A stretch of 23,991 nt of DNA from a virus. Each line of letters starts with the position of its first letter. The first letter of the stretch is position 1. Shown here in pieces: positions 684 to 20,727 of the stretch. The position numbers and the translations under genes were made by a program. The stretch is taken from positions 1 to 23,991 of the IMG/VR virus record IMGVR_UViG_3300030329_003347. One strand, 5' to 3'. The notes under the pieces were generated by a model. The model did no database searches. It was not told the origin of the DNA and saw nothing but the letters and a program-made list of their open reading frames with translations.

Positions 684-712
684 TTAATAATAATAGGTGA
701 AACACCTACTAT
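684..712 (+). promoter_or_regulatory. Possible weak rightward promoter towards capsid gene
   Basis: TTAATA (684-689), 17-bp spacer, TACTAT (707-712). The -35 is poor (4 of 6) and the -10 fair. It overlaps the leftward promoter and contains the same palindrome in its spacer, so both directions could be controlled together. It would give a leader of about 240 nt before the capsid start at 954. No better rightward candidate is seen in 713-953. Confidence 0.3.
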
Positions 713-716
713 GCAA
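687..716 (-). promoter_or_regulatory. Sigma70-type promoter of leftward operon
   Basis: Read leftward: -35 TTGCAT (716-711), 18-bp spacer, -10 TATTAT (692-687). An alternative -10, TTATTA, gives a 17-bp spacer. The start site would be near 680, about 30 nt before the 31-residue gene. The spacer holds the perfect palindrome at 694-708, the classic place for a repressor to block RNA polymerase. Confidence 0.65.
694..708. promoter_or_regulatory. Operator-like perfect palindrome TAGGTGAAACACCTA
   Basis: Six-base arms TAGGTG and CACCTA are exact inverted repeats around AAA. The element sits between the -35 and -10 of the leftward promoter. A near copy (13 of 15 bases) occupies the spacer of the leftward promoter at 20699-20727. 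A repeated palindrome inside two promoter spacers is what a phage repressor operator looks like; the binding protein is not known. Confidence 0.65.
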
Positions 717-953
717 GGACAGGCAATACGATTTTTGAAACAATGTTTTGGTCAGGTCAAAAACTCTATTGAGCAATTCCCATGACAGGTTTAGATTTGT
801 AAGAATTGATCGTGGGTCCAGTCGGGGCATTCCAACCACTCAGTTCTGCGAATCGAGGTGTGACGCTTGCTCGAGCATCATCGAATCAAATCATTGATAA
901 GTGTTAACCGGATAACAAAAACCCTTTGTATATCCCAAAAACAGGAACAAATT
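717..953. other. Non-coding leader upstream of capsid gene
   Basis: With 649-716 this makes about 300 bp without a convincing gene on either strand. It contains a 10-bp palindrome TGCTCGAGCA (868-877), a near-palindrome TGTTAACCGGATAACA (902-917, 7 of 8 paired positions) shortly before the capsid ribosome binding site, and a repeated CGAATC. No clear sigma70 promoter or tRNA fold was found. The 902-917 element is a candidate late-gene control site, with low confidence. Confidence 0.4.
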
Positions 954-2318
954 ATGGATATGAGATCCAGAGCCAAGGAGCTGAAAGCCAAGTGTGAGAC
1001 GGCCATCTCCGACGCAGAACAAGAAGGGCGCACCATGACAGAAGAAGAACAAGAGCAGTATGATTCTGACTTCTCTGAATTGGAAGGCGTACTTTCCCAG
1101 ATTAAGCGAGCAGACCAGCTCGCAGAGGTCGCTGGCGATCTGTCACAGCCAGCGTCAACTCCTGTCGGACCAGAAGCATCAGTTGCTCCAGAGCAGACAA
1201 GAGAGAGCCATGCAGAAGTACGCATGGGCAAAGACAGAAAAAATGAGCGTGGATTCGACAGCATCGGTGAACAGCTCCAGGCAATTGCTCAAGCGAGCCA
1301 CCCAGAATCACGCTTTGAAACTGTAGACAAACGTCTCATGTTTCTACAGGAACGAGGTGGAAATCCTGAGAATGAAAAACGTGCCAGTGGTGCATCGGAA
1401 GCAGTCGCATCTGATGGTGGGTATCTTGTGCAGAAGGATTTCAACGACAGGATTCTTGAGCGTGTCTACAACACTGGCGAAATAGCCAGCAGAGTAACAC
1501 GTCAGGCGATTGGTCCAACTGCCAATGGTCTCACATACAACCAACTTGACGAAACAAGCCGTGCAGACGGTTCAAGATTCGGTGGCTTACAGGCTTACTG
1601 GACAGCAGAAGCTGGAGCGCTGACAGCAAGCAATCCGACATTCGCACAAACAACCATGACGCTGAAAAAGTTGGCATGCCTGTTCTACTCGACTGAGGAA
1701 TTGTTGATGGACCAGACAGCCTTGGCAGGAATGGTAGAAAGAATTGTGCCTCAAGAGATAGCCTTCAAGGTTGAGGACGCAGTGATTAATGGAGATGGCA
1801 GTGGCAAACCATTGGGCATCTTGAATGGTCCATCATTAGTCACGGTAGCCAAGGAATCGGGACAGACGGCTACTACTATAAACGCCACTAACGTGGAAAA
1901 AATGTGGAGCAGGATGTTCGCTCCAAATCGTGGATCGATGGTATGGATTATGAACCAAGACTGCGAGCCACAGCTTACTGCCATGACGAGTGGTGATCAT
2001 CCGATCTATATGCCACCACTAGGGTTGTCGGATACTCCTTTCAGCAGATTGTACAACAGACCAGTCATCGCTACCGAGTACAACCAAACGCTGGGAACGG
2101 TTGGCGATATCATGGCTGTTGATCTTTCACAATACATGTTGATCGATAAAGGCGCAGTTCGGGGTGACAGTTCAACTTCCGTGCGTTTTTTATACGATGA
2201 ACGTGCCTTCAGATGGATGTACAGAGTGGACGGCCAGCCTATGCCTAACAGCGCCCTCACTCCCAAGAACGGAAGTAACACAGTTTCACCATTCGTAGCA
2301 TTAGCGACAAGGAGTTAG
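954..2318 (+). CDS. Major capsid protein, HK97 fold
   Basis: This is the 454-residue capsid subunit. Residues 1 to about 90 form a charged, helical, coiled-coil-like region matching the scaffolding delta domain of HK97-type capsids, normally removed by a prohead protease. The mature part probably begins near RGFDSIGEQLQA (99-110). The hallmark GDGSGKPLGIL lies at 280-290 and GGYLVQKDF at 155-163. The start at 954 has AGGA 7 nt upstream; a longer reading from an upstream TTG (867) adds 29 basic residues with no ribosome binding site and is rejected. Unusually, terminase, portal and protease genes are not upstream; a divergent operon is there instead. A linker rich in Pro, Glu, Ser and Ala occupies about 64-90. 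Confidence 0.96.
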   Translation: MDMRSRAKELKAKCETAISDAEQEGRTMTEEEQEQYDSDFSELEGVLSQIKRADQLAEVAGDLSQPASTPVGPEASVAPEQTRESHAEVRMGKDRKNERGFDSIGEQLQAIAQASHPESRFETVDKRLMFLQERGGNPENEKRASGASEAVASDGGYLVQKDFNDRILERVYNTGEIASRVTRQAIGPTANGLTYNQLDETSRADGSRFGGLQAYWTAEAGALTASNPTFAQTTMTLKKLACLFYSTEELLMDQTALAGMVERIVPQEIAFKVEDAVINGDGSGKPLGILNGPSLVTVAKESGQTATTINATNVEKMWSRMFAPNRGSMVWIMNQDCEPQLTAMTSGDHPIYMPPLGLSDTPFSRLYNRPVIATEYNQTLGTVGDIMAVDLSQYMLIDKGAVRGDSSTSVRFLYDERAFRWMYRVDGQPMPNSALTPKNGSNTVSPFVALATRS

Positions 2319-2319
2319 T

Positions 2320-2799
2320 ATGTCTGCACAAGGATTTAGCATTGGAGAAGGCCAAGGGAAAATGATCCTGGGCGTAACTCCAAAAGATATAGACGCAGGA
2401 GCGCAAACCTCAGATGCGTGGAGCATGGCAGATTGGACTCATGCGAGTATCATTATTTCATTTGGCGTGACTGGCGCAGCCAGCACTGTCACAGTCAAGG
2501 AGTCCACTGACGCATCAGGCAGTGGGGCTACTGCGATCGGCTTCAGCTACTACGCTGAAGAAACGGCAGGTGGTGATACCACAGGCGCAAGAACTACAGT
2601 AGGAACTGGAGGGTTCAGTTCCAGCACTAATGATTCTGTCTATTACGTAATTGAGTTGGACAGCACAGAATTGAGCGACGGTTATCCCTGGGTGACTGTT
2701 CATCTTTCTGATCCTGGGGCAGCTACGTTTGCTTGCGTAAATGTAGTGTTGTCAGGAGGTCGTTATCAGGAGGTTCAGAGTCTAACGGCAATAGCCTAA
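2320..2799 (+). CDS. Probable head decoration or capsid-associated protein
   Basis: A 159-residue protein with AAGGAG ideally spaced before its ATG, one base after the capsid stop. It is rich in Gly, Ser, Thr and Ala, has alternating beta-strand patterns, and lacks membrane segments or Cys pairs. Its ending, GGRYQEVQSLTAIA, and the segment DGYPWVTVHLSD resemble small beta-rich proteins encoded right after HK97-fold capsid genes in many siphophages. The position argues for a particle-surface or capsid-stabilising role. A strong hairpin follows it, so the capsid and this protein may form a highly expressed pair. Function rests mainly on gene order. Confidence 0.6.
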   Translation: MSAQGFSIGEGQGKMILGVTPKDIDAGAQTSDAWSMADWTHASIIISFGVTGAASTVTVKESTDASGSGATAIGFSYYAEETAGGDTTGARTTVGTGGFSSSTNDSVYYVIELDSTELSDGYPWVTVHLSDPGAATFACVNVVLSGGRYQEVQSLTAIA

Positions 2800-2821
2800 T
2801 CAGTTAGTAGCTAGAGACTCA

Positions 2822-2855
2822 GATGGGTGGGGAGTCCTCCAACTCCCTGCCCATC
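2822..2855 (+). terminator. Strong hairpin after capsid gene pair, partial terminator
   Basis: GATGGG (2822-2827) pairs with CCCATC (2850-2855), and GGGAGT (2830-2835) with ACTCCC (2842-2847), with a small internal bulge. The sequence after it is T-rich but interrupted (ATTTGTTCATTTG). It probably attenuates transcription or protects the upstream mRNA so that capsid and decoration proteins are made in excess over the connector genes. Confidence 0.55.
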
Positions 2856-2884
2856 ATTTGTTCATTTGAACGGAGAAAAATTTT

Positions 2885-3175
2885 ATGTCCATAAGAATCA
2901 GAAGACTGGATGGCCCAATGAAAGGTCAGGTGTATTTCGTCCGTGATGACGTTGGGCAAAATTTGATTGATGTTGGATCAGCAGTGTTGGCAGATTTCGA
3001 TGACAGATCAGTGGCAACTGAACCTGCTGTGGAAACTCCAGAGAAATCTACTGCATATGCAGATATGAAAGTGAAGGAGCTGAAAGCAGAAGCAGAGGAA
3101 CGTGGTTTAGAAATCGAGGGAACTGGAACAAACGGACGAGTCACTCGAGCCGACCTGATCAAAGCACTGTCCTAA
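2885..3175 (+). CDS. Small protein with C-terminal SAP/Rho-N-like domain
   Basis: A 96-residue protein. The N-terminal part (1-40, IRIRRLDGPMKGQVYFVRDD) looks like a small beta domain. After an acidic Pro/Thr/Glu linker, the C-terminal 35 residues (VKELKAEAEERGLEIEGTGT onward to DLIKAL) form a helix-extended-loop-helix pattern typical of SAP, HeH/LEM and Rho N-terminal domains. Such proteins are common between capsid and connector genes in siphophages. They may bind DNA or a capsid partner, but the role is not established. It starts after CGGAG 10 nt upstream and ends 1 nt before the next ATG. Confidence 0.7.
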   Translation: MSIRIRRLDGPMKGQVYFVRDDVGQNLIDVGSAVLADFDDRSVATEPAVETPEKSTAYADMKVKELKAEAEERGLEIEGTGTNGRVTRADLIKALS

Positions 3176-3176
3176 A

Positions 3177-3776
3177 ATGCACAAGCAGACTCCGTGGAAC
3201 AGGGTGGTGACCACCACTGCTCCGACCACCAGACCAGTCACCTTAGATAGAGTGAAACGCAATCTTGGTTTGGATGATGTCAGAGATTTCGACAGCACTT
3301 TGCAGGAGCTGATTGCATCGGCTACCAATGCTGTTCAAAATGATCTGGGCAGATGTCTACTGGAAACCACTTACACTCTGTATTTAGACAATTGGCCAGG
3401 TCGGGAAATTCAGCTACCGTATCCACCACTGATGTCTGTGACTCATGTGAAATACTATGGGGATGCAACAGAGACATTGGACACTCTGTCGAGTTCGGAT
3501 TATACGGTCGGTAAGGGAGACCCTGGGGTTCTTTGGCTAAATGAGGATAAGGACTGGCCTGATTTAATGGATAGACCACAGCCCATTGAGATCCAGTTCA
3601 AAGCTGGATACGGAACAGACACCGACGATGTGCCGTCTGCTATACAGCAAGCAGTGGTGATGACTGCATGTTACTTCTTTGATCAACCATTGCCAGTGGT
3701 CACAGGAACGATTGCGACAGAATTGCCTCTGGGAGTTTCACGTTTGATTGATTCAGAAAGGTTCCAGAGGTATTAG
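3177..3776 (+). CDS. Head-tail connector, HK97 gp6-like adaptor
   Basis: A 199-residue protein. The layout matches the gp6-like adaptor family that forms a ring under the portal: an N-terminal helical region (VTLDRVKRNLGLDD, then the LIASATNAVQNDLG helix), a beta segment with PYPPLMSVTHVKYYG at about 81-95, the motif IEIQFKAGYGTD, and a C-terminal helix (IQQAVVMTACYFFDQP). The YPPLMSVTHVKYY stretch corresponds to the usual P-hydrophobic-V-x-V-x-Y signature. The first 15 residues are longer than in typical members. No clear Shine-Dalgarno precedes the ATG, which lies 1 nt after the previous stop, so translation is probably coupled. Confidence 0.8.
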   Translation: MHKQTPWNRVVTTTAPTTRPVTLDRVKRNLGLDDVRDFDSTLQELIASATNAVQNDLGRCLLETTYTLYLDNWPGREIQLPYPPLMSVTHVKYYGDATETLDTLSSSDYTVGKGDPGVLWLNEDKDWPDLMDRPQPIEIQFKAGYGTDTDDVPSAIQQAVVMTACYFFDQPLPVVTGTIATELPLGVSRLIDSERFQRY

Positions 3777-3778
3777 AA

Positions 3779-4123
3779 ATGGCAAACAAAAGCAGACTCA
3801 GAACAAAGGTGATGTTTCAGAAGGACACTCGCACCAAAGACACCGATGGGTTTGAAACGCCCACGTGGGTGGACCAATGTGAACGGTATTGTTCTGTCGA
3901 ACCAATGCAAGGTCGAGAGTACTGGGACGCACACGCAGTTCTTGGTCAACAGCCTTTGCGTATTCGCACTCGCTATGATACGACTATCGGAGCTGTCGAG
4001 CCTGATCGCTGGCGTATGAAAAACGGTTCCACGATTTATGACATTAGAAGCATGGTCAATGTCGATTTGGAAAATCGTTACCTGGATTTTGTATGCACGA
4101 CTGGCACTGGAGTGTTGGACTAA
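3779..4123 (+). CDS. Head-tail joining protein, SPP1 gp16-like
   Basis: A 114-residue beta-barrel-type protein. It has the pattern of the head-tail joining (stopper) family: basic N-terminus (MANKSRLRTKVMFQKDTRT), D-x-D-G-F, W-V-D-Q-C, VEPMQGREYWDA, LRIRTRYDTTI, YDIRSMVNVDLENRYLDFVC. In SPP1 the equivalent protein closes the connector after DNA packaging. It follows the adaptor gene by 2 nt, and its stop TAA overlaps the next ATG (TAATG at 4121-4125). The assignment combines sequence pattern and gene order. Confidence 0.82.
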   Translation: MANKSRLRTKVMFQKDTRTKDTDGFETPTWVDQCERYCSVEPMQGREYWDAHAVLGQQPLRIRTRYDTTIGAVEPDRWRMKNGSTIYDIRSMVNVDLENRYLDFVCTTGTGVLD

Positions 4124-4710
4124 TGGCAAAGAATTGGTTGAACCCGGGAAAAAGAAAAAGGGTTTCTCAAGGTCCAAGCGACTTCAAGAATTTGGGTATC
4201 GATTTGGAGCTGGACGGTGATAAAGAAACCCTTGCTATGTTCCACAACTTAAATATGGGTTTGCGAAAAAACGTATTGAAACAAGCCACATTGAAAGGCG
4301 CAGAAGTGGTGGCGCAGGAAGCCAGACTCCGTGCGCCTCGAGGCAGGTCTGGCAACCTAAAACGCAAGATTCGATCTGTGGTTTTGACCACCAGAGATGA
4401 GCTGGCCACAATTGGTGTGTCGTGGTTGCGAGGCAAAAGTTTGAGAGGCAGTGGATTTTATGGTTTGTTTTTGGAAAAAGGAACTAAGCCAAGATTCCAA
4501 AAAAAAGACAAACGCTTTAGGATGAGGGGTAAGAGAAAGCTATTGGATTCGTATATACCAAAAGCTACTGGAACTGTGGGTCCAAAACCGTTTCTCACAC
4601 CTGCTTTTGACGCCAAGCGCAACGAGGCTTCTCACGTCATTAAAGCTGAGATCAGCAGAACGATCAGAAAAATAATCACACGACGTGGCAAAGGACGAGT
4701 CCGTGGCTAA
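4123..4710 (+). CDS. Tail completion protein, HK97 gp10-like
   Basis: A 195-residue very basic protein. The core resembles HK97 gp10-like proteins: a helix LRKNVLKQATLKGAEVVAQE, then ARLRAPRGRSGNLKRKI, a beta segment, GFYGLFLEKGTKP, and the ending PKPFLTPAFDAKRNEASHVI. These proteins act at the neck, where the finished tail meets the head. The start at 4123 uses the TAATG overlap with the joining-protein stop; an ATG at 4093 inside the previous gene adds ten residues without support. The N-terminal 50 residues, before MFHNLNMGLRK, are more than in most family members. The 3' end overlaps the next gene. Confidence 0.85.
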   Translation: MAKNWLNPGKRKRVSQGPSDFKNLGIDLELDGDKETLAMFHNLNMGLRKNVLKQATLKGAEVVAQEARLRAPRGRSGNLKRKIRSVVLTTRDELATIGVSWLRGKSLRGSGFYGLFLEKGTKPRFQKKDKRFRMRGKRKLLDSYIPKATGTVGPKPFLTPAFDAKRNEASHVIKAEISRTIRKIITRRGKGRVRG

Positions 4711-5098
4711 TCAAATTGAAGACGTCATATACTCCAGGCTACAGGCTACATCAGCTGTCACAGATTTGGTCTCCACTAGATGCTATCCAATACGCAGACC
4801 ATCCGATGCCAGCTTACCTTTGATTGTCTATGAAAGAATCAGCGAGGTGTCACCACCTGCTATGGCGAGCGACCCTGGAAACGTCATCAGTCGCTTTCGA
4901 TTTTCTTGCCAGGCCACCACTCCAGAGAACGCCAGGGAACTAGCTGCCAAAGTCAAATCGACTATCGGATACTATCGGGATAGCACCAGTACGCCAGTTG
5001 TGGATGGTTGTCTGCCAGAGGGTTCGGCAGAGGAATATGATTTTGGAGCAGATTTATATGTCGTGGAAAAAGACTTTCAGATTGCATACAGGGAATAA
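4703..5098 (+). CDS. Tail terminator/completion protein, DUF3168-like
   Basis: A 131-residue protein starting at GTG 4703, with AAAGGA 8 nt upstream. A GTG at 4685 in the same frame lacks a ribosome binding site. It shows the DUF3168 pattern: N-terminal helix (IEDVIYSRLQATSAVTDLV), RCYPIRRPSDASLPLIVYER, ISRFRFSCQATTPENARELA, and a final strand YVVEKDFQIAYRE. Members form the ring that ends tail-tube growth and joins tail to head. The start overlaps the end of the gp10-like gene by 8 nt, indicating coupled translation. Confidence 0.85.
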   Translation: MANQIEDVIYSRLQATSAVTDLVSTRCYPIRRPSDASLPLIVYERISEVSPPAMASDPGNVISRFRFSCQATTPENARELAAKVKSTIGYYRDSTSTPVVDGCLPEGSAEEYDFGADLYVVEKDFQIAYRE

Positions 5099-5101
5099 AC
5101 T

Positions 5102-5836
5102 ATGGCAACTTTTGTACAAACCAACGTCGGACTGTACTGGGGCAGTTACAGTTTGGCATCGACCTTCAACGCAGTCGGATTAACTCTTTCAAGTTCATTG
5201 GCAGAGGACACCGTATATGGGGACACAACCGTCTCTAATGCTGGTGGGCTGACCACTGTTTCTTTGGAAGGGGAAGGCTATTGGGATTCGACAACCGATG
5301 GAATTTTGGATGCTACTACTGGACTGAGTGCGTCCAATCAATTGGTGACCGTAACTCCAGTAGATCAGTCGGTTGGTTCACCAGCTCTTTTCAGCCAGTA
5401 TCAGACTGCCGAATACAACCCATTTTCCACAGGCACAGTCGGTGAAATGTTGGCATTCAGAGTCAGTGGGGAATCGGTCGGTCAGGAATTAGTTCACGGA
5501 GAAATAATGGTTGCACCAGGCACGACCAGGACCAGCAATTCTAATTCCGATTCAAATCAGCTGGGAGCCGTTTCTGCCACGCAAACAGTCTACAGCGCTT
5601 TGCACGTTTTGACTGTATCTGGATCATCACCCACGTTGGACGTCGTGGTGAAGTCGGACAATGCGTCAGGATTCTCATCTCCGACCACCCAGCTCACGCA
5701 CACTCAAGCGACAGCAATTACCTCAGAACTCAAAAGCAAGGATGGGGCAATAACCGACGATTACTGGAGAGTGTATTGGACGGTTGGTGGAGGCTCACCA
5801 CAGTTCGATTTTATTTGTTCAATTGGAATCATTTAA
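5102..5836 (+). CDS. Tail tube-like protein with C-terminal extra domain
   Basis: A 244-residue Ser/Thr/Gly-rich beta protein. Residues 1 to about 140 align by eye with the next gene product: both begin MATFV, then share a (D)DT-x-x-GD-x-x-x-SNAGGL-like block and AEYNPFSTGTVGEM versus ESYNPVAGSVGDQS near the end of the domain. The last 90 residues form a separate beta-rich domain (YSALHVLTVSGSSPTLDVVV to YWRVYWTVGGGSP), possibly an immunoglobulin-like or surface-exposed fold. It is either the major tube protein with a decoration domain or a minor tube or initiator variant. Position between the tail terminator and chaperone genes fits both. Confidence 0.7.
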   Translation: MATFVQTNVGLYWGSYSLASTFNAVGLTLSSSLAEDTVYGDTTVSNAGGLTTVSLEGEGYWDSTTDGILDATTGLSASNQLVTVTPVDQSVGSPALFSQYQTAEYNPFSTGTVGEMLAFRVSGESVGQELVHGEIMVAPGTTRTSNSNSDSNQLGAVSATQTVYSALHVLTVSGSSPTLDVVVKSDNASGFSSPTTQLTHTQATAITSELKSKDGAITDDYWRVYWTVGGGSPQFDFICSIGII

Positions 5837-5853
5837 TTTAGGAGTAAAGAAAG

Positions 5854-6288
5854 ATGGCCACGTTTGTAATGTACAATGCGTATCTCACAGTCAACACAGA
5901 TGGAACCACAGGTTCTGCAATAAACTTGTCAGACCATGTGAGGAGCATCACTTTGGATCAATCCGTTGCGATGCAGGATGACACTGCGATGGGGGATTCC
6001 GTCGCTTCTAATTCTGCTGGGCTAGAGTCCTGGACTCTGACGGTTGAGTTTTTGCAGGACTATGCAGCTTCCAAGGTTGATGCTACAATCTCAGGATTAG
6101 TTGGAGTCGGCAAAACAACACAACTGATATTCAGATCCGACTCTGGAAGTACGGCAGTCACCAACCCACAATGGACAGGTCTGGGGGTGGTTGAAAGCTA
6201 TAATCCAGTAGCTGGTTCTGTGGGTGACCAAAGTATGGCCAGCGTTGTTTTTCAAAGCGCTGGAGCATTAACGAGAGTCACATCATAA
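5854..6288 (+). CDS. Tail tube protein, compact form
   Basis: A 144-residue protein following AGGAG (9 nt spacing). The pattern NLSDHVRSITLDQSVAMQDD, DTAMGDSVASNSAGLESWTL, FLQDYAASKVDATI and ESYNPVAGSVGDQS is typical of short siphophage tail tube proteins, which stack as hexameric rings around the tape measure. No membrane segment is present. It is related to the N-terminal domain of the preceding gene product. Being the simpler copy, and next to the chaperone genes, it is the better candidate for the main tube subunit, but sequence alone cannot separate the two. Confidence 0.8.
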   Translation: MATFVMYNAYLTVNTDGTTGSAINLSDHVRSITLDQSVAMQDDTAMGDSVASNSAGLESWTLTVEFLQDYAASKVDATISGLVGVGKTTQLIFRSDSGSTAVTNPQWTGLGVVESYNPVAGSVGDQSMASVVFQSAGALTRVTS

Positions 6289-6303
6289 TGATTGACTAAA
6301 AAG

Positions 6304-6316
6304 TCCTTTCCCTTCA
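6304..6316 (+). promoter_or_regulatory. Pyrimidine-rich leader motif TCCTTTCCCTTCA, copy 1
   Basis: A 13-nt motif ends 14 nt before the ATG of the tail chaperone gene (6331). An identical copy ends 14 nt before the ATG at 11889. Same sequence and same spacing suggest a translation element, for example a pyrimidine-rich ribosomal protein S1 contact. Confidence 0.4.
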
Positions 6317-6866: not shown

Positions 6867-8575
6867 ACATTTCACGCATGAACGTGCAGGTGACTGCAAG
6901 CACTTCTGATTATGCTCGAGAGATGGACAAAGCTGAAAAGCGAACTCGAGTATTCACCAAGAGAGTTGAGAAATCCAGAATCTCATTGCGAGGGTGGGCA
7001 ACAGCGATGGCTGGAGCCGTGGCCAGTGCAGTGGGTTTGGGCGTCTTAGCCAAAAGAACGTTTGACCTGGGTGCAGGAGTTGCAGAAACCGGATCAAAGT
7101 TCAACACCGTCTTTGGCAAGGAAGGTGCAAAGCAGGTGAATGACTTCCTGGATAATTTTGCCAACAAAGCTGGGCTGACAAAAACTGAGGCACAAGCGTT
7201 AGTTTCCACCACTGGAGCCATCGCTCAAGGTATGGGATTTGCTCAAGATGCCAGCGCTACATTTGCCACCCAGGTGACTAAGCTGAGTGCCGATCTTTCA
7301 TCGTTCAACAATATGCCAACAGAAGAAGTATTGATGGCAGTGAACTCAGCTCTCACAGGAGAGAGAGAACAACTCAAGCGCTTGGGAATCGTGATCAAAG
7401 AAACTGAAGTGCAACAGATGGCTCTGTCGATGAGTGGAAAAGCTGTCGCAAAATCTCTGACACAACAGGAAAAAGCGACGGCCACGCTTGCGCTCATAAC
7501 ATCTCGAGCAGGTGTTGCAGTTGGTGACCTGGAGCGAACCCAGAACTCTGCTGCCAACGTGGGCAAAAGGCTTGGTTCAATGTTCAGAGAGCTGATGGAA
7601 ACCATTGCAATCTCATTGATGCCAACTTTTGAATTGGTGCTGGAACAGCTCGACGAGATGTCGAAAAGTTTTGAGGATTTGAAAGAGAAGATCATCTCTT
7701 CTTCAACGACATTTGCAAATTGGTCAGCCGTCATTGGCAATCTTATGATAATGATCAAAGATTATATGTTTGCCCCGATGCAAATGCTTTTCAATTTCAT
7801 ACAAATGTTCGGGAACCTTTTTACGATGATGAAAGGTTTCACACTTTTTCAAGATGAACTGACTGCTAAAGGCTTTGAGGAAATGAAAGAGAATTTTCAA
7901 GATGCCATGTCAGCCTTCAACAAACCAGCACTGTCCACGATAGAGATGTTCAAGTCTCTGGGTATTGCATTGGGACTCATTGAAGGTGACGTCAAAGAAC
8001 TGACAGACGCAGTCGGAGGTGGCGCTCTGAAGATGGACAATGAATTGGCTCCATCTGTTAAGGATTTGGGAGACAAAATCAAAACTCTCGACGAGCAACT
8101 CAGAGACCTCACTCAGACATTCACGAAAAATTTTATTGACCGAATTACGAACTCGCTGAACAATAGCAAAAATGCGTTTGAAGGATTCTTCACCTACATC
8201 CGTCAGGAGCTGACAAAAGTCATGGTCAAGTGGTTGGCTTTTCAAACACTGACAGGATTGTTTCCACACTCAGAGTTCATTGCTGGCGTGACTGGGACAC
8301 CAACTCCAGCCACACTGAGTGGCTCTGGGGCTACCAATCCCGATGGCACATCAATTATGCATCCATTAAAGTCACTGGGTTTGACACCACAGGTGGGTGG
8401 TGGTGGGCGTGGAATGACCGTCAATCAAAACATCACCTTGACTGTTTCTGCGATGGACGGTCAGGATGCATCACGTTTTCTGAGAGATAACAAAGGCACA
8501 ATTGCTCAAGTCATCTCAGAAGCCACTCGAGATTCGACTGGCTATCGAGCGCAGTTATTAGGAGGCAAAGGCTGA
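6863..8575 (+). CDS. Tail tape measure protein
   Basis: A 570-residue protein, short for the family. It is predicted to fill the tail tube and set its length; at about 0.15 nm per residue the tail would be near 85 nm (an estimate). The N-terminal 45 residues are charged and helical, followed by an Ala/Gly-rich hydrophobic stretch (about 43-63). The conserved tape-measure block holds LSADLSSFNN (141-150) and SALTGEREQLKRLGI (162-176). A second hydrophobic region lies near residues 290-325. The C-terminus (VNQNITLTVSAMDGQDASRF) matches the lambda H-type end. ATG 6863 overlaps the G-T stop. The short length and two hydrophobic regions may matter for DNA passage through the inner membrane. Confidence 0.93.
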   Translation: MNISRMNVQVTASTSDYAREMDKAEKRTRVFTKRVEKSRISLRGWATAMAGAVASAVGLGVLAKRTFDLGAGVAETGSKFNTVFGKEGAKQVNDFLDNFANKAGLTKTEAQALVSTTGAIAQGMGFAQDASATFATQVTKLSADLSSFNNMPTEEVLMAVNSALTGEREQLKRLGIVIKETEVQQMALSMSGKAVAKSLTQQEKATATLALITSRAGVAVGDLERTQNSAANVGKRLGSMFRELMETIAISLMPTFELVLEQLDEMSKSFEDLKEKIISSSTTFANWSAVIGNLMIMIKDYMFAPMQMLFNFIQMFGNLFTMMKGFTLFQDELTAKGFEEMKENFQDAMSAFNKPALSTIEMFKSLGIALGLIEGDVKELTDAVGGGALKMDNELAPSVKDLGDKIKTLDEQLRDLTQTFTKNFIDRITNSLNNSKNAFEGFFTYIRQELTKVMVKWLAFQTLTGLFPHSEFIAGVTGTPTPATLSGSGATNPDGTSIMHPLKSLGLTPQVGGGGRGMTVNQNITLTVSAMDGQDASRFLRDNKGTIAQVISEATRDSTGYRAQLLGGKG

Positions 8576-15500: not shown

Positions 15501-16652
15501 TTTGGATCGACCAGCTTTAATGATGCCAACATCACCAACGTCGGAGACATAGCACTGGACACTATTTCATCAGATGCTGGCACAACTGTATCTGTCACCT
15601 TGGGGACGGATGCTGGTGACAACTTTGTGGTCGGAAACAACAGTGCATTTGTTGTTGAGGGTGATACGGATTTCGTCGGGATCGGAACCGACACTCCAGC
15701 TTGCTTGCTCTATTTGACGGATGCAAACGATGGCATCACTGCCATCGGTAATGCTAGAGCGAGAGCAGGAATCTGGATGAACACTAAGTCGGGAACAGGA
15801 GCTGGCATGGCACAGGGAGTGACTGATGGTGGCTATCCTGTGATCCAGGGAATGTATACCGATGACTCTACAGCCAGGACATTATATTTAGCTCCTTATG
15901 GTGGTGGAATAGCATTGCCACCAGCAGGTAAACTTTACTTAGATGGTGGTTCAAATACCTATCTCACAGAATCGGCAGCAGATACGATTAGTGTATACAC
16001 TGCTGGAGATGAAAGATACATATTCGGTGGGGGTGGAAATCCATACCTCAGAATATTGGCAGGAAACACTGGCGTTGGAGCTGTACAATTCTATGAAGAT
16101 GATGGGGGGAGTGGCCAGGTACTCCACTGGCAAGCAGGAGTTCGGGGAGCAGACAACAATTTTTACATCAGTGAAAACGCCACGATTCACTCATCCTACG
16201 CCTTGATGATTTCTAATTCCCAGGATGTGACTGTCGGAGGGGCATTAGCCAAAGGCTCTGGCAGTTTCAAGATAGATCATCCAATCAAAGAAGATTCCTT
16301 GCTCGTACATTCATTCTTGGAAGGCCCACGCTGTGATTTGCTCTATAGAGATAGCGTAGAATTACACTTGGGAACAGCGAGTGTTGACATGGACGAGGTA
16401 GTCGGACTAACTGACGGAACATGGGAAGCACTGTGCAGAGAGCCACAGGTGTTTGTTCAGAATGAGAGTGGCTGGAGTTCTGTGAAGGGAGCTATATCGG
16501 GAAGCACTCTAATCATCAGCTGTGAAGACACCAACAGCACCGATACAGTATCATGGATGGTCGTTGCTGAACGACACGATGACAATATTAAAGGAGCCAG
16601 CTGGACTGATGATGACGGCAAACCAATCCTTGAACCATTGAAGGAAGCATAA
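12591..16652 (+). CDS. Tail fiber, 1353 aa, repeat-rich
   Basis: The largest gene in the window, a likely trimeric receptor-binding fiber. The short N-terminal part (1-50) probably attaches to the tail tip. The shaft holds two 98-residue repeats (residues 215-312 and 422-519), four copies of a TIATGTW-x-GT motif often followed by YGGTG, and six 13-residue VTSTTAELNILDG units (residues 810-887). The C-terminal region includes SGSFKIDHPIKEDSLLVHSF and ends after VSWMVVAERHDD with a WTDDDGKPILEPLKEA tail. I associate this end domain with marine phage fibers. No S74-type self-cleaving chaperone signature is seen. The tip between about 1030 and 1220 is non-repetitive and is the likely receptor-binding part. 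Confidence 0.9.
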   Translation: MAEINYIVIETDGAVIEVDNGTNVIDFNTNSEISVEYSGDSKDANAIRGRTIETGTPADQEVLTWNNSASEWQYQTVDENVDDQVASLIQNSAGGGLTWTYDDSAGTLTPAYVGDSTLVTTGAVNSGSITSGHGSIDIGSSALTAGTATFTQVDITAEGDLRLQDASGGQYVGFDAPATVSTSYTLTMPSAVGSVNQVLSLSNTDGTLAWSTPEVGDITAVTAGDGLSGGGTSGAVSLALDLNELTGATVNVANDSIAIVDASDSNASRKETIADLMSAVDGTGLTASSGVLSVDASQTQITAVGTIATGTWQGTEIGLGYGGTELVGETDGKIVVADGSGAPVHLDIGSSTAITILGTVATGTWQGTTLAVGYGGTGLTSYASGDVIYASGSTTLAKLAKGSDGQVLTLASGVPSWATPTVGDITAVTAGNGLSGGGTSGAVSLALDLNELTAATIDVANDSIAIIDANDSDTSKKESIADLMSAVDGTGLTASSGVLSVDASQTQITAVGTIATGTWSADTIAVNKGGTGATSLTDGGVLLGSGTGAITAMSALGDGVIVIGDGSGDPTTLDVGSSSAITILGTIATGVWNGTSIGTGYTDAKVTSVVAGTLVDVSATTGAVTVNVDLSELATSTSDGDGDFFVVVDDSNAQKKLTKGNIDLAGFGGTASSATLASTITVTANNTTDETVYPLFVDGATGTQGAESDTGLTYNPSSGILTTTQVTGNLVGNVTGDVSGSSATTTLASTVTVVDSSDTTAFPAFFDSATGSLAIKTDASNLTYNASTGVLSSGGLVVPDGSLTLASTAVTSTGAELNILDGVTSTTAELNILDGVTSTTAELNILDGVTSTAAELNILDGVTSSTAELNILDGVTSTTAELNILDGATVVVGEINYLDLGATAVGNAIASKAVVLDANKDYTGVRNFTLTGELQATNIGYTDGDNAIVIADGGGITASAGITSTASANTFGSTSFNDANITNVGDIALDTISSDAGTTVSVTLGTDAGDNFVVGNNSAFVVEGDTDFVGIGTDTPACLLYLTDANDGITAIGNARARAGIWMNTKSGTGAGMAQGVTDGGYPVIQGMYTDDSTARTLYLAPYGGGIALPPAGKLYLDGGSNTYLTESAADTISVYTAGDERYIFGGGGNPYLRILAGNTGVGAVQFYEDDGGSGQVLHWQAGVRGADNNFYISENATIHSSYALMISNSQDVTVGGALAKGSGSFKIDHPIKEDSLLVHSFLEGPRCDLLYRDSVELHLGTASVDMDEVVGLTDGTWEALCREPQVFVQNESGWSSVKGAISGSTLIISCEDTNSTDTVSWMVVAERHDDNIKGASWTDDDGKPILEPLKEA
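13233..13526 (+). repeat. Fiber module repeat, copy 1 (98 codons)
   Basis: Encodes residues 215-312, from VGDITAVTAG to IATGTW. The protein is about 90% identical to copy 2, 621 bp downstream, but the DNA differs at most third codon positions, so this is an old or recoded duplication. Part of the fiber shaft. Confidence 0.85.
13854..14147 (+). repeat. Fiber module repeat, copy 2 (98 codons)
   Basis: Encodes residues 422-519 of the fiber. It matches copy 1 without insertions or deletions. The longest exact DNA match seen by eye is about 17 nt (CTGATGTCAGCAGTGGA). Confidence 0.85.
15018..15251 (+). repeat. Six tandem 39-bp units encoding VTSTTAELNILDG
   Basis: Six units of exactly 13 codons, followed by a degenerate seventh (VVVGEINYLDL). 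The AELNILDG part is invariant in the protein, yet no two units use the same codons for it. This is a beta-strand shaft repeat common in marine phage fibers. Confidence 0.92.
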
Positions 16653-17008
16653 TGGCCAACACATACACAATGAAAATAGAAAGACTGAATGCTGTGGTTG
16701 GTCCTGATTCGCACGGCCATCAGAACTCAGTCATCAGGATTGAATGGCAGGTCGTTGCATCGGATGGACAGGGACATTCTACACACTGGGCAGAGACTAC
16801 CAAGCTACAATGGCAAGAGGGTGAGCCTTGGACAGAATTGGCTGAACTCACGGAAAGCCAGGTAGTCGGATGGGTGGAGACTTCACTCGGTAGTCGGTAC
16901 GATTTGATCAAATCTAAGCTTGATGAGACACTGGTGAGAGAGGCAGAGACACCAGCAGAGGAAATCATCGACAGAATGCCTTGGTCTCCACCAGAGGCAG
17001 AGTTGTGA
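16652..17008 (+). CDS. Fiber-downstream small protein, DUF7936-like
   Basis: A 118-residue protein with AAGGAAG upstream and a TAATG overlap with the fiber stop. The pattern TYTMKIERLNAVVG, RIEWQVVASDG, EGEPWTELAELTESQVVGWV and a final PW (residues 110-111) fits a widespread family of small phage proteins after tail-fiber genes, which I recall as DUF7936; the name is from memory. A short beta domain is followed by an acidic helix. The role may be fiber assembly or capping. The end overlaps the next gene start by GTGA. Confidence 0.65.
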   Translation: MANTYTMKIERLNAVVGPDSHGHQNSVIRIEWQVVASDGQGHSTHWAETTKLQWQEGEPWTELAELTESQVVGWVETSLGSRYDLIKSKLDETLVREAETPAEEIIDRMPWSPPEAEL

Positions 17009-17316
17009 ACCTTGGAGACGTGGTGACTGAGGCTGTTCCCAGTGCGAAAGCGCTGAGTGTGATCGTCGGATTTGCAGTCACTGCGTTTCTAGCTGGAGCA
17101 GGGTTCGTATTGGGTTGGTCAGACTACAGCAATTTGCCCACCGATGTTTCAGAACTGCAAGCACAGATGTTAGTTGCTGACAGCACGATGACTGAATTGA
17201 AAACAGGACTGTCCACAGCTCACGATGAGCGCCATCAAATTTTATGTCTAGTAAGACTGACAGCCACAGCTGGCAGAACATTGACCCCATTGGAGGTACA
17301 GGAACGATGTCCTTAA
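17005..17316 (+). CDS. Single-pass membrane protein of lysis group
   Basis: A 103-residue protein best started at GTG 17005, which overlaps the previous stop (GTGA) and has GAGG about 8 nt upstream; a TTG at 16981 is possible but less likely. A hydrophobic segment at about residues 17-38 (ALSVIVGFAVTAFLAGAGFV) is followed by a hydrophilic, coiled-coil-like region (VSELQAQMLVADSTMTELKT) and two Cys near the end. This plan resembles inner-membrane spanins or accessory holins, and the position directly before the holin supports a lysis role. There is no lipobox and no nested outer-membrane partner, so spanin identity is not proven. Confidence 0.6.
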   Translation: MNLGDVVTEAVPSAKALSVIVGFAVTAFLAGAGFVLGWSDYSNLPTDVSELQAQMLVADSTMTELKTGLSTAHDERHQILCLVRLTATAGRTLTPLEVQERCP

Positions 17317-17723
17317 CAGGTCCACTAGGTTTCATCAGCAAAGTGATAGAGCCAGTCACAGCTCTGGTCGATAAGTTGCACACCTCAGATGATGAGCGAC
17401 TGGAGGCCAAATCAGTGCTGTTGAACATGCAGACTGAGCTGATGTCACAGACCCTCGATTACGAGAAACAGATTGCCAACGCTCAACGAGACATCATCGT
17501 GGCAGAGGCCACTGCGAACTCCTGGCTGACCAGGACATGGCGCCCCATCACTATGCTGACTTTTGTTGCGCTGATTGTCATCAGTCAGTTTACCGGAATG
17601 GCAATCCCTGATTCGTTATGGACGCTAATTCAGCTGGGATTGGGTGGTTATTTGGGGGGACGATCCGTTGAAAAGTCTGTCGAGTCAGTGGTGAAAGTAA
17701 TGAAGCAAAAGGAGCAAGTCTGA
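17307..17723 (+). CDS. Holin, GTA-type Holin_3TMs family
   Basis: A 138-residue protein starting at ATG 17307, inside the end of the previous gene, with GGAGG 10 nt upstream. An amphipathic N-terminal part is followed by a charged helix (SDDERLEAKSVLLNMQTELM) and the motif QRDIIVAEATANSWLTRTWRP (60-80). Two hydrophobic segments follow, at about 81-97 and 105-118, then a basic C-terminal helix. The AEA-x-x-SWL-x-x-x-RP block is the signature of holins first described in gene transfer agents of alphaproteobacteria. Holins open the inner membrane at the end of infection so that the peptidase encoded next reaches the cell wall. Confidence 0.82.
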   Translation: MSLTGPLGFISKVIEPVTALVDKLHTSDDERLEAKSVLLNMQTELMSQTLDYEKQIANAQRDIIVAEATANSWLTRTWRPITMLTFVALIVISQFTGMAIPDSLWTLIQLGLGGYLGGRSVEKSVESVVKVMKQKEQV

Positions 17724-18214
17724 TGGCACATAAATGGCAAAAGCAGGAGGGTTACCACGACGGCTTTGAGTTGAATCATTTCGCTCCCCATGAGTTTGAT
17801 CGTCCACAGTTGATGGACGCTGACTTCATGCAATCTCTCGACATTTTGCGTGATCGCTGTGGGTTTCCACTCACCATAAACGATGACGGCCGAACAGACG
17901 CAGACATGAAACGCATCTATCGCAAAGAGATTGCGAAAGGTCAAAGCTATCCGACCACATCTGCACATCTACAGATTGGAGATCACGCAGTTCGGGCAGT
18001 GGACATAGAGCCTAGTGTCCCTAGACCTGGGGACGGTTCCAGTCTGACACTTGAGGAAAGAGAACTGGAGTTGATCTATCAGATTTTGACCATGTATAAG
18101 CAGGGTGATTTTCCATACCTGGGACTTGGACTCGAGACAGGCCACATCCACCTCGATGATACCCCACGACTGAAACACAAGCGACCATCGTTCTGGGTTG
18201 CAGTCTCCAAATAG
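17723..18214 (+). CDS. Endolysin, M15-type metallopeptidase
   Basis: A 163-residue protein without a signal peptide, so it needs the holin for export. Features of M15 peptidases: HFAPHEFDRP (19-28), a helix with LDILRDRCGFPLTINDDGR (39-57), SAH (80-82), AVDIE (92-96) and GHIHLDD (140-146). Likely zinc ligands are His82, Asp94 and one of His141 or His143. The His82-to-Asp94 spacing of 12 is longer than the usual SxHxxGxAxD arrangement, because extra residues QIGDH lie between. His88 might substitute. It would cleave peptide cross-links of peptidoglycan. TGATG overlap with the holin stop. Confidence 0.8.
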   Translation: MAHKWQKQEGYHDGFELNHFAPHEFDRPQLMDADFMQSLDILRDRCGFPLTINDDGRTDADMKRIYRKEIAKGQSYPTTSAHLQIGDHAVRAVDIEPSVPRPGDGSSLTLEERELELIYQILTMYKQGDFPYLGLGLETGHIHLDDTPRLKHKRPSFWVAVSK

Positions 18215-19102
18215 ATGCACTTAGTCGGTGTGTTTTCAGACATACATGCAGGAAGCACCATTGGACTGATGGGCGAGCCTGTTTTATTAGATGACGAAAA
18301 CTACTTCCATCCCAGCACACTTCAAAAATGGCTGTGGCAAGAATGGGTCGATCACTGGCGTCAGATTGGCGAGCTGAGAAAGGATGCCGATCAGTTCACT
18401 TTGATAAGTCTGGGTGACCTTTCTGAAAATATACATCATGGGACACACCAAGTGATTTCCAACCAGGCCAGCGTACATTCTCGAGTTGCCGTTGACTGTT
18501 TGAAAGTTCCATTGGCTCTGCTGCCGAATGAGATTCACATCATCAGAGGGACGTCATCGCATACTGGTAAAGGATCATCGATTGAGGAAAGCATTGCCAG
18601 ACATCTGGCCAGTCATGGGCATCCAGTTATCAAAGATCCTGACACTAAACAGTTCACATCCTATCGCAGAAGGTTGTTGATCGGGGATACGTTGCTAGAC
18701 CTTGCTCATCATGGTAGAGCATCTCAGCGATCCTGGACATCTAAGAGCTATTCTGCTCTCTATTCTGAAGATATATTCCAGAGCCAGATGAAAGATTGCT
18801 ATCGAGCCATGCGTCAAAATCCAGATGACCTGGTGAACATCTTCAACGAGATGCGACCACCAGATATATCTCTCAGAGGCCACCACCATCGGTACGTTGA
18901 TTCGGGTCCAGCTGAAGACTACGGAACCAGGCTCATCAGATCTGGATGTTACCAGGCATCCAGTGAGTTCGTATATCGCATCGCCAGTGAGACGGTCCCT
19001 TCAATTGGATGTGTAGCTTTGGCAATTAGAGATCATTCAGTCGAGGTCATTCCTTTCCTATCTCAAATGGCTCGTCACACAATCATCAAAGGGCAACAAT
19101 GA
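18215..19102 (+). CDS. Calcineurin-like metallophosphoesterase
   Basis: A 295-residue protein directly after the endolysin stop. The metal-site motifs are in order: D9-x-H11 (FSDIHAG), G67-D68 (SLGDLSEN), RGTSSH (111-116) in place of the usual GNHE, HH (165-166), and GHHHRY (222-227). The set is complete enough for an active two-metal hydrolase, with the third motif altered as in several phage homologues. Substrates in phages are unknown; nucleotide, RNA-end or protein phosphate removal are all possible. The stop overlaps the next gene by ATGA, tying it to the winged-helix protein. Location at the end of the late operon is unusual for a nucleic-acid enzyme. Confidence 0.88.
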   Translation: MHLVGVFSDIHAGSTIGLMGEPVLLDDENYFHPSTLQKWLWQEWVDHWRQIGELRKDADQFTLISLGDLSENIHHGTHQVISNQASVHSRVAVDCLKVPLALLPNEIHIIRGTSSHTGKGSSIEESIARHLASHGHPVIKDPDTKQFTSYRRRLLIGDTLLDLAHHGRASQRSWTSKSYSALYSEDIFQSQMKDCYRAMRQNPDDLVNIFNEMRPPDISLRGHHHRYVDSGPAEDYGTRLIRSGCYQASSEFVYRIASETVPSIGCVALAIRDHSVEVIPFLSQMARHTIIKGQQ

Positions 19103-19392
19103 TTCAACTAACCCAGGAACAAATCATAGAGGAATTTGAGAAGGCTCTCGAGGTCAGCAAGCAACATCAGGACACCGACGCTTTTACTCATAAAGAGTTG
19201 CAAGCACTACTAGGGATGTCAGCCAACAGTGTATATGATCGCTTGGCAGTTTTAGATGGAGCAGGACGATTGGAGTGCGTGTCCAAAAGTATTGAGACCA
19301 GAGCAGTCGGAATGAACGGCAAACGTGTCTGGCGCCATGTCACAGCATATCGCATTCTGCCAGAGAAAAAGGCTGAATCTCAGGAAAAGTGA
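19099..19392 (+). CDS. Small winged-helix DNA-binding protein
   Basis: A 97-residue protein. After an N-terminal acidic helix, residues 28-55 (FTHKELQALLGMSANSVYDR then LAVLDGAG) form a helix-turn-helix and 56-92 a beta wing (RLECVSKSIETRAVG to VTAYRIL). The C-terminus is charged. It is likely a transcription regulator or an accessory DNA-binding partner of the phosphoesterase, to which it is translationally coupled. No strong rightward terminator follows. The fold call is good; the target is unknown. Confidence 0.72.
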   Translation: MIQLTQEQIIEEFEKALEVSKQHQDTDAFTHKELQALLGMSANSVYDRLAVLDGAGRLECVSKSIETRAVGMNGKRVWRHVTAYRILPEKKAESQEK

Positions 19393-19458
19393 AAAAAACG
19401 ACGTCCATAGATCGCTTCTAAGAGACTTGGCAGGGGTTCTGAATAGTAGGAGTAGGGC

Positions 19459-19493
19459 AAAAAAAGACCCCTGGGCCGTGAACCCAGAGGTCT
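19459..19493 (-). terminator. Intrinsic terminator of leftward Cys-pair gene
   Basis: Leftward, AGACCTCTGGG pairs with CCCAGGGGTCT (one internal mismatch) around a 7-nt loop, then seven T. It lies 30 bp past the stop of the leftward gene. On the rightward strand the T-run is absent, so it works one way only. Confidence 0.88.
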
Positions 19494-19522
19494 CCATCAG
19501 TTCCTCAGTCTGATCGTTAGGG

Positions 19523-20092
19523 TTATTTGTTCTTTGCAAAACTCGTTCTGATATTGTCCCACCTGTTTTTCATCTCGCACTTCTTGTGTCCCTCATATGC
19601 ACACTCTTCACAAGCATCGACAAACATCATATCCCAGTGATTGCTGTCACCACCGATCATGTCGGTTGGCAACCTGTGACGGAGCCAACGGCCACGATCA
19701 CCACAGCTTTCACATTCAACGAACTTTGCATCATCAGCATAGTTCCAATATTTGTGCATCTTTCTATGGTCTTCAACTGCCCAGATGATGGCATACAATT
19801 CGTCGCTGTTAACTACTGTAAATATCTTGTCCAGCATTTCCTCAAGAAGTTTTCTTGTGGCTTTGTGGATCAACTCTCCAGTCTTTCGATTGACGATGCT
19901 CAAGAAGCCGTCATCTGGATGCCATGAGATTGACAGTTGACGATGAACAATAGCGCAAAACAATTCGACGTGTTCCAGTGTCTCGATTTCTGGCAATTTA
20001 GATGTGAGCCATTCGGTCAAATCTTTATTGACCAAACTGTCATCGCTGAAACCATTTTTGAAGGTCGCATTATCTAATGATGAGTAGTTCAT
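19523..20092 (-). CDS. Stand-alone leftward protein with zinc-ribbon-like Cys pairs
   Basis: A 189-residue protein of unknown family. ATG 20092 is preceded by AAAGGA (spacing 7 nt). The N-terminal 120 residues are mixed helical and acidic (VELFCAIVHRQLSISWHPDD, ELYAIIWAVEDHRKMHKYWN). The C-terminal part has C127-x2-C130 (CESC) and C161-x2-C164 (CEEC), plus His169 and Cys172, suggesting one structural zinc site. It has its own promoter and its own terminator and faces against the late operon, a moron-like arrangement. It may bind nucleic acid or protein. It does not resemble the common Arc, Cro or CI types. Confidence 0.8.
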   Translation of the reverse strand: MNYSSLDNATFKNGFSDDSLVNKDLTEWLTSKLPEIETLEHVELFCAIVHRQLSISWHPDDGFLSIVNRKTGELIHKATRKLLEEMLDKIFTVVNSDELYAIIWAVEDHRKMHKYWNYADDAKFVECESCGDRGRWLRHRLPTDMIGGDSNHWDMMFVDACEECAYEGHKKCEMKNRWDNIRTSFAKNK

Positions 20093-20135
20093 TCTGCTAT
20101 CCTTTCTAAATTAGATGTTAATATATTTGTCTGAT

Positions 20136-20165
20136 AATATAGTTGGATCTTCTATAGAATTGCAA
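20136..20165 (-). promoter_or_regulatory. Promoter of leftward Cys-pair gene
   Basis: Leftward: -35 TTGCAA (20165-20160), 18-bp spacer, -10 TATATT (20141-20136), then about 43 nt to the ATG. The spacer contains the perfect 10-bp palindrome TTCTATAGAA (20150-20159). It starts right after the terminator of the upstream leftward genes, so this gene is transcribed independently. Confidence 0.65.
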
Positions 20166-20170
20166 GCATA

Positions 20171-20200
20171 GAAAAACCCCAGGGCTATTAACCCTGGGGC
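20171..20200 (-). terminator. Intrinsic terminator of leftward wHTH operon
   Basis: Leftward CCCCAGGG pairs exactly with CCCTGGGG (arms 20177-20184 and 20192-20199) around a 7-nt loop, followed by TTTTTC. It ends the leftward operon whose last stop is at 20229. A second short inverted repeat, AACCAG/CTGGTT (20202-20220), lies just upstream of it on that transcript. Confidence 0.9.
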
Positions 20201-20228
20201 CAACCAGTCTCCAGCTGGTTTTGGTTAG

Positions 20229-20525
20229 CTACTTCTGGCAACGTCCCGATGGCAACAATCGGTATTCAAAAAGTCCTCTGCCTTTGTATCGTTTCTGCAC
20301 ATAGTTGCTTCCAAATTTTTCTTTCCTCAAATGCCTCATTTGTGCAGAGACCGATGCATGTGGATCGCCTGTGATTTCAACAACGTCATCCAACGTCATC
20401 CACCTTGAAGAACACATGGCTCTGTAGACTCTCCGAATCTGACCATTCAAACGTGGCCGATCTCGTTTGTCATTGTAGTCAGAGCCATCAAACTGAGCAT
20501 CGAAAATATCTCTCTGTGCTGTCAT
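20229..20525 (-). CDS. Winged-helix DNA-binding protein, candidate regulator
   Basis: A 98-residue protein started at ATG 20525 because that codon overlaps the stop of the upstream 40-residue gene (ATGA). A longer reading to 20609 would run antisense-like through that gene with a very basic His/Arg stretch and is rejected. Residues 27-70 (LNGQIRRVYRAMCSSRWMTL, then DDVVEITGDPHASVSAQMRH) form a helix-turn-helix, and 71-92 (FGSNYVQKRYKGRGLFEYRL) a basic wing. It is a good candidate for a transcription factor acting on the nearby divergent promoters and their operator. Its terminator is 30 bp downstream. Confidence 0.78.
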   Translation of the reverse strand: MTAQRDIFDAQFDGSDYNDKRDRPRLNGQIRRVYRAMCSSRWMTLDDVVEITGDPHASVSAQMRHLRKEKFGSNYVQKRYKGRGLFEYRLLPSGRCQK

Positions 20526-20644
20526 TTGAACCATCCGATGACCACACGAATGCAGTCGTATGCGAGAACGATTGCGATGGTGCCTATCAGGCCACCTATG
20601 AATGACCATGCCAACGCCTCGATGATTGGGTCTGTCGTTGTCAT
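20522..20644 (-). CDS. 40-residue single-pass membrane peptide
   Basis: ATG 20644 has a strong ribosome binding site (AAGGAAGG) and the frame ends at TGA 20522-20524 inside ATGA, shared with the winged-helix gene. Residues 10-29 (ALAWSFIGGLIGTIAIVLAY) form one membrane helix, with Asp/Glu before and Arg/Lys after it, suggesting the N-terminus outside and C-terminus in the cytoplasm. It is the first gene after a near-consensus promoter. It could be a superinfection-exclusion, signalling or holin-like micropeptide; no homologue is recognised. Confidence 0.65.
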   Translation of the reverse strand: MTTTDPIIEALAWSFIGGLIGTIAIVLAYDCIRVVIGWFK

Positions 20645-20698
20645 CTTTCCTTCCTTTGCTAATGTGATTAGCTAAATGTGTTAATTATATCGTCTCTG

Positions 20699-20727
20699 AG
20701 TATAGCAGTTTCACCTATTCTTGTCAA
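20699..20727 (-). promoter_or_regulatory. Near-consensus sigma70 promoter, leftward
   Basis: Leftward: TTGACA (20727-20722), exactly 17-bp spacer, TATACT (20704-20699). The -35 is perfect and the -10 is 5 of 6. It should be strong unless repressed. The operator-like element at 20703-20717 lies in its spacer and touches the -10. The leader to the 40-residue gene is about 50 nt. Confidence 0.88.
20703..20717. promoter_or_regulatory. Operator-like element, second copy (13/15)
   Basis: Leftward strand TAGGTGAAACTGCTA. It equals the palindrome at 694-708 except at two adjacent bases in the right arm. As there, it lies in the spacer of a leftward promoter, in the same orientation. One arm stays perfect and the other is weakened, as in graded phage operators. 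Confidence 0.65.

Follow-up and report, generated by a model that had tools for sequence, protein, structure and literature searches.

The window analyzed here, a linear fragment of 23,991 bases (IMG/VR virus record IMGVR_UViG_3300030329_003347), belongs to a siphovirus-like genome with an HK97-type capsid protein and tail genes, and with an exonuclease and a DNA methyltransferase at its right. All three recognized leftward transcription units of the window carry a 15-bp dyad in their promoters, and no other location in the window does. The dyad probably serves as an operator: one DNA-binding repressor, a dimer and most likely encoded by the phage itself, would act through it on every recognized leftward promoter; we place the probability of this reading at about 0.7. 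The sites and the promoters that hold them are listed below.

694-708: operator 1, TAGGTGAAACACCTA, a perfect 6-3-6 dyad (TAGGTG-AAA-CACCTA) inside the spacer between −35 and −10 of leftward promoter 1.
20703-20717, minus strand: operator 2, TAGGTGAAACTGCTA, an imperfect dyad covering spacer and the first two −10 bases of leftward promoter 2.
20140-20154: operator 3, TAGTTGGATCTTCTA, which fits the dyad consensus TAGnnGnnnCnnCTA; it sits within the leftward promoter 3 spacer and extends over two bases of the −10.
687-716, minus strand: leftward promoter 1, −35 TTGCAT (716-711), 18-bp spacer, −10 TATTAT (692-687), read from the sequence.
20699-20727, minus strand: leftward promoter 2, TTGACA-17-TATACT with an extended −10 TG, strong (11/12 in the consensus scan).
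20136-20165, minus strand: leftward promoter 3, TTGCAA-18-TATATT (9/12 in the scan).

Operators 1 and 2 had been paired in a sequence-only reading of this DNA as a shared 15-mer in two leftward promoters. The pair was recovered at those positions, with 13 of 15 bases identical when site 1 is read on the plus strand and site 2 on the minus strand. Read in the same direction along their leftward promoters, the two agree at only 10 of 15 bases; the orientation of the better match is immaterial because the element is a dyad. Both promoters also stood, promoter 2 as a strong one and promoter 1 as one that is weak by consensus and was missed by the scan. The latter is nevertheless credible, since relatives have TTGCGT-17-TATAAT (L011) or a similar promoter at the same place. 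Similarity between promoters 1 and 2 ends at the element, the flanks being identical at 18/60 and 20/60 positions, as expected at random, and a shuffled site-2 promoter matched site 1 equally well in 4e-5 of trials. The raw 13/15 pair is insignificant genome-wide, because 10.75% of random 15-mers from the window have another match of at least 13/15 within it, and a plain motif search of the window allowing up to 3 mismatches gave no enrichment (6 versus 4.5 expected). The dyad consensus TAGnnGnnnCnnCTA behaved differently: it has exactly three matches in the window (at 694, 20703, and 20140) against 0.10 expected, a count reached in none of 100 shuffles. All three matches fall in spacers of leftward promoters, whereas scattering through coding DNA at chance frequency had been named beforehand as the outcome that would speak against the idea.

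A role of the dyad as an RNA terminator was considered and rejected. The stem of site 1 is only 6 bp (−5.7 kcal/mol), site 2 is a poor dyad, and the element precedes the point at which its own unit's transcript is predicted to begin, at about 680 for unit 1, 20692 for unit 2, and 20129 for unit 3.

Related phages were then compared, the relatives being a family of environmental phages gathered by capsid-based searches, for which a capsid alignment and a two-sequence exonuclease alignment were obtained; searches for close relatives with the window's exonuclease and with its 98-aa winged-helix (wHTH) protein found nothing. In L011 and L013, whose capsid protein is 85% identical to that of the window, the counterpart of leftward promoter 1, ahead of the capsid gene, contains TAGACGAAACGTCTA. 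It differs from the window operator by four substitutions, all of which preserve the palindrome and the AAA center (TAGACG...CGTCTA versus TAGGTG...CACCTA). Other relatives carry GGGGACACCTGTCCCC (L018), GGGGACACCTGTCCTC (L009), GGGGACATCTGTCCTC (L023), and GGGCATATGCCC (L021) at the site-1 position. In total, operators were found at matching promoters in L011, L018, L009, L021, and L023 for site 1 and in L104, L105, and L117 for site 2, and thus the predicted conservation at the same two promoters was borne out.

The same pairing of the two places recurs within single relatives, each with an operator of its own. The genome G003 has the dyad GGGGACANNTGTCCCC twice, at 190-201 and 17164-17175, and G008 has it at 1063 and 20469, the second copy lying in a leftward promoter just left of an orthologous exonuclease gene (44% identical protein), an arrangement that is the same as in the window. 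Copies with at most 1 mismatch in these two genomes mark the same two promoters, 17-19 kb apart, and none arose in Markov simulations. G013/L117 has two operator copies, at 8520 and 9648, the latter adjoining its exonuclease gene, and L015 has three leftward promoters and cassettes with TAGAAGAAAGTTCTA or a one-base variant of it. Matches with at most 1 mismatch in the GC-rich records all fell at leftward promoters, with essentially none in simulated sequence. Operators within a phage agree at 12-15 of 15-16 bases, compared with 8-12 between AT-rich phages and 5-8 when an AT-rich phage is set against a GC-rich one. Symmetry is a property of most of these sites: the dyad is perfect in site 1, L011, L018, and L104 and partial in site 2 and L015, and a crude test of spacer palindromy over 14 promoters gave a combined p of about 2.5e-5 (5.6e-5 without site 1). 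A second palindrome, GGGGGCGTCTGCCCCC, with 3 mismatches, was seen in G008 only, in the exonuclease-promoter region (L105 14505). G008 (L105 14505-14740) and L117 (9690-9930) also share a leader, about 200 bp long and containing several repeats that resemble hairpins, in the stretch from site 2 to the exonuclease gene; the window does not have it.

When a larger collection was scanned with the AT-rich operator-promoter pattern, 39 stretches were returned, the only clear relatives being L144 and L175, which are the L011/L013 phages, and unrelated groups with the same layout turned up as well. One unrelated virus group (L161, L155, and L162) reads TTGACA-AG-TAGAAGTAACTTCTA-TATACC and has a second copy; in L161, the site at 5458-5482 precedes a helicase-like gene and the second copy (3785-3799) is 1.7 kb away. 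Another unrelated locus, L153 (2030), reads TTGACA-AG-TAGTAGAAACATCTA-TAAAGT.

Several observations weigh against a common operator. All promoters, in the window and in the relatives, are consensus predictions, and TAGnnGnnnCnnCTA was drawn up after sites 1 and 2 were known, so that independent support comes only from the third match and from the relatives. Window site 2 is a poor dyad, the motif repeated in the two related operator-promoters of L004 is hardly palindromic, and the leftward promoter found at site 1 in L003, L028, and L029 shows no clear dyad. GC-rich phages resemble one another in their operators too (11-16 of 16 bases), so that within-phage matching is discriminating for AT-rich phages alone. 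A stretch of about 100 bp, ribosome binding site included, occurs three times in L015, and the G003 and G008 units share the untranslated-region (UTR) sequence AACCTTCGCAACAGGAG; since flanking promoter and UTR are thus repeated along with the operator, recent duplication contributes in L015 and partly in G003/G008, unlike in the window, where sharing is limited to the operator. Finally, the 12 family records searched for regulators and lysogeny genes, all of them fragments, gave no match to XRE or ribbon-helix-helix (RHH) proteins.

Set against these points are the kept position of the operators and their matching within AT-rich phages. Co-divergence with a phage-encoded protein would lead one to expect operators that change symmetrically from phage to phage yet match inside each one. 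A repressor dimer would cover the region between −35 and −10 and block RNA polymerase; with spacers of 17-18 bp, which are normal for sigma70, such occlusion would be the natural effect of binding. The leftward accessory cassettes would thereby be co-controlled through one shared operator, and as repressor specificity diverged between phages, operators would follow symmetrically and be shared by the cassettes within each phage. That a protein binds the sites, that it represses rather than activates, that it comes from the phage and not from the host, and when control is exerted are all inferred.

The site set of the window works like a classical dimeric operator set. Early promoters of the lambda type carry dimeric operator dyads in tandem triplets that are bound by CI and Cro, with specificity that differs between related phages. 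The likeness lies in a dyad within the promoter, where a bound dimer would block RNA polymerase, and in a specificity that varies among relatives; unlike in lambda, no tandem triplets and no CI/Cro-like gene were found, and the genes under control are accessory cassettes. In Cluster A mycobacteriophages (L5 and Bxb1), repressor sites are dispersed over the genome, some of them in promoters, and the motifs are phage specific and diverge between relatives (PMC6550527). The repeated site with a motif variant for each phage resembles these operators and stoperators. The Cluster A sites are asymmetric 13-bp sequences bound by a monomer and located mostly outside promoters (PMC9283540), more than 20 per genome with a known repressor gene, whereas the window's family has a 15-16-bp dyad, two or three per fragment and in promoters only, and no repressor or integrase was found. 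Stoperators also keep one orientation relative to transcription, whereas the match between sites 1 and 2 pairs opposite orientations with respect to their promoters; site 1, moreover, is perfectly symmetric, and 3/3 sites are in promoters. The SAS/ESAS repeats of Cluster K are tied to the starts of a gene subset, about half of them with an inverted-repeat element, the consensus of which shifts between phages (PMC3203893). In contrast to SAS, which mark translation starts, and to ESAS, which have 17-bp arms and a variable spacer (PMC3203893), the window dyad is compact and lies between −35 and −10.

The leftward units downstream of the three operators, and the rightward features beside site 2, are as follows.

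553-648, minus strand: first gene of leftward unit 1, a 31-aa open reading frame (ORF) with AAAGGA upstream of its start.
142-534, minus strand: second gene of leftward unit 1, a 130-aa ORF.
20522-20644, minus strand: first gene of leftward unit 2, a 40-aa ORF, probably a single-span membrane peptide.
20229-20525, minus strand: second gene of leftward unit 2, the 98-aa winged-helix (wHTH) protein.
20175-20201, minus strand: the intrinsic terminator that closes unit 2, with a U tract after the hairpin (−20.9 kcal/mol).
19523-20092, minus strand: gene of leftward unit 3, a 189-aa ORF.
19464-19494, minus strand: the intrinsic terminator that closes unit 3, with a U tract after the hairpin (−23 kcal/mol, z −3.9).
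20721-20749, plus strand: candidate divergent rightward promoter of the exonuclease operon, TTGTCA-17-TATCCT (9/12 in the scan).
20790-21698, plus strand: RecE/Cas4-like exonuclease gene, the landmark for site 2, with a 44% identical orthologue at the matching site in L105.

Unit 1 extends to the window edge and possibly beyond, its end lying outside the view, whereas units 2 and 3 are closed cassettes, each with its own promoter-operator and terminator and oriented against the neighboring genes. Most likely, the leftward units are small accessory cassettes placed at two boundaries of an otherwise rightward genome, one before the capsid gene and the other before the exonuclease gene. Units 2 and 3 resemble phage morons, which sit between phage modules as accessory genes equipped with a promoter and a terminator of their own; unlike morons, cassettes within a single phage have an operator in common and thus seem to be under joint control. 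A distant homologue of the 189-aa protein of unit 3 is encoded in L003 (5919-6287, minus strand), where it adjoins the capsid gene, that is, at the other insertion spot. By sequence comparison, this suggests that cassettes may move between the capsid-side and exonuclease-side spots.

A regulon joining the left operon, the wHTH operon, and the recombination operon had been proposed. The first two are linked by the operator, as is unit 3, which that proposal had overlooked, but membership of the recombination (exonuclease) operon was not upheld: operator 2 ends 3 bp upstream of the exonuclease promoter, just before its −35 and outside that promoter. Possible divergent rightward promoters had been noted at both sites; the one at site 2 is close and scan supported, whereas the one near site 1 (772-800) was found by eye only and is about 65 bp away.

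The 98-aa protein had been put forward as the binding protein, a proposal that fared poorly. Homology indicates that it is a genuine winged-helix protein: it is 44% identical over 86 residues to the N terminus of PenguinLover67 gp52, a 539-aa annotated exonuclease of a mycobacteriophage, and this N-terminal domain was the only significant phage relative found. The domain is thus fused to the exonuclease in PenguinLover67 and encoded as a separate gene beside the exonuclease gene in the window. A close-relative pattern search of viral_contigs and the family loci gave no relative of the protein, and neither a PDB sequence match nor a plasmid match was found; kinship with the leftward proteins of L004 and L018 was rejected because BLASTP produced no alignment. 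Its exonuclease relative, its place adjoining the window's exonuclease gene, and its lack in relatives with the same operator layout, which have other genes there, suggest a role in DNA metabolism rather than that of a common repressor, and judging by its sequence it is a weak candidate for the operator binder. In L105 and L117, the site-2 leftward operon encodes a 66-aa helix-turn-helix (HTH)-like protein, 97% identical between the two, which is too weak to call (Pfam HTH_29, E value of 0.034). Structure models of the wHTH (predicted local distance difference test [pLDDT] of 51) and of the 66-aa protein (pLDDT of 58) were too poor for a fold search. The window encodes another wHTH protein, of 97 aa, at 19099-19392. 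A separate, near-perfect single-copy dyad, TTTGCTAAT-GTG-ATTAGCTAA, was seen at 20655-20675, between leftward promoter 2 and the first ribosome binding site; it could be the wHTH's own site or second operator, or an RNA hairpin.

Which protein would read the operator bears on the alternatives. That the dyads are sites of a host transcription factor exploited by the phage, so that the leftward cassettes follow a host signal, fits the lack of a phage repressor gene among our finds and a layout that is not private to the window's family, as the unrelated L161/L155/L162 and L153 have it. We regard this as rather unlikely, since two phages whose capsid proteins are 85% identical have operators that differ at four bases and are still palindromic, and a host factor common to such close relatives should keep one site unless the hosts differ. 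As a special case of a phage-encoded repressor, the wHTH protein might autoregulate via operator 2, directly downstream of which it is encoded; a winged-helix relative exists, and the site-2 leftward operon of L105 and L117 also encodes a small HTH-like protein. This, too, is unlikely, and slightly more so: the only significant phage relative points to DNA metabolism, relatives with the same operator layout lack the protein, the 66-aa protein is too weak to count, and the other dyad in the same leader could equally be the wHTH's site.

Alternatively, the promoters would be copies of one mobile promoter cassette, alike by common descent with no regulator involved, as the triple repeat of L015, the UTR sequence shared by G003 and G008, and the capsid-side location of the unit-3 homologue in L003 might suggest. 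The window shares the operator only, between random flanks, and copying leaves unexplained why diverging sequences stay palindromic, which makes this account improbable. We consider it more improbable still that the dyad is an activator or architectural site. MerR-type activators also use the position between −35 and −10, and some GC-rich promoters can be read with 19-20-bp spacers, but AT-rich phages have 17-18-bp spacers, and promoter 2, being near consensus, needs no activator. Chance resemblance has in its favor that about 1 in 9 random window 15-mers finds an equally good partner and that the plain pattern is unenriched. It is the least probable account by far, given three dyads against 0.10 expected, all in leftward promoters, and recurrence in relatives refutes it in practice.

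A structured RNA was observed apart from the operators. This two-hairpin element of about 109 nt (798-906, plus strand) lies upstream of the capsid gene (954), begins near the predicted start of the late transcript, and was present in every family member examined. Nine of its 14 consensus pairs have changed on both sides, that is, in a compensatory manner; 93.3% of cells were paired versus 75.5% in shuffled alignments, and the covariation score was 0.555 versus 0.190 (0/500). Each of 15 family records gave a single hit to the covariance model, which had no others in the 1.07 Mb searched, and Rfam gave no match. The HK022 put antiterminator is about 70 nt with two stem-loops, and putL lies just downstream of its promoter (PMC9378689). 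By analogy only, in that two stem-loops stand at a transcript start in both, the element is possibly a put-like antiterminator or else a translational leader.

As to lifestyle, the 12 fragmentary records gave no match to a tyrosine integrase or a serine recombinase; together with the lack of XRE and RHH matches in them, these fragments thus give no indication of lysogeny. Gene content assembled from several relatives covers the early, packaging, head, and tail regions. We tentatively propose, as a possibility short of even odds, that in a lineage with no recognizable lysogeny module the variable accessory genes are housed in leftward modules, each a cassette bearing the one operator specific to that phage. 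New cassettes would thus come under one regulator of drifting specificity, an immunity-like divergence outside lysogeny.

For an uncultured and unannotated phage lineage, these results provide a testable regulon, in which the co-controlled genes, the place of binding, and the specificity-setting bases are predicted. If the regulator is found, the change from TAGGTG...CACCTA in the window to TAGACG...CGTCTA in L011 would constitute a natural experiment on the evolution of repressor specificity, and the cassette layout would show phages placing newly gained genes under existing control.

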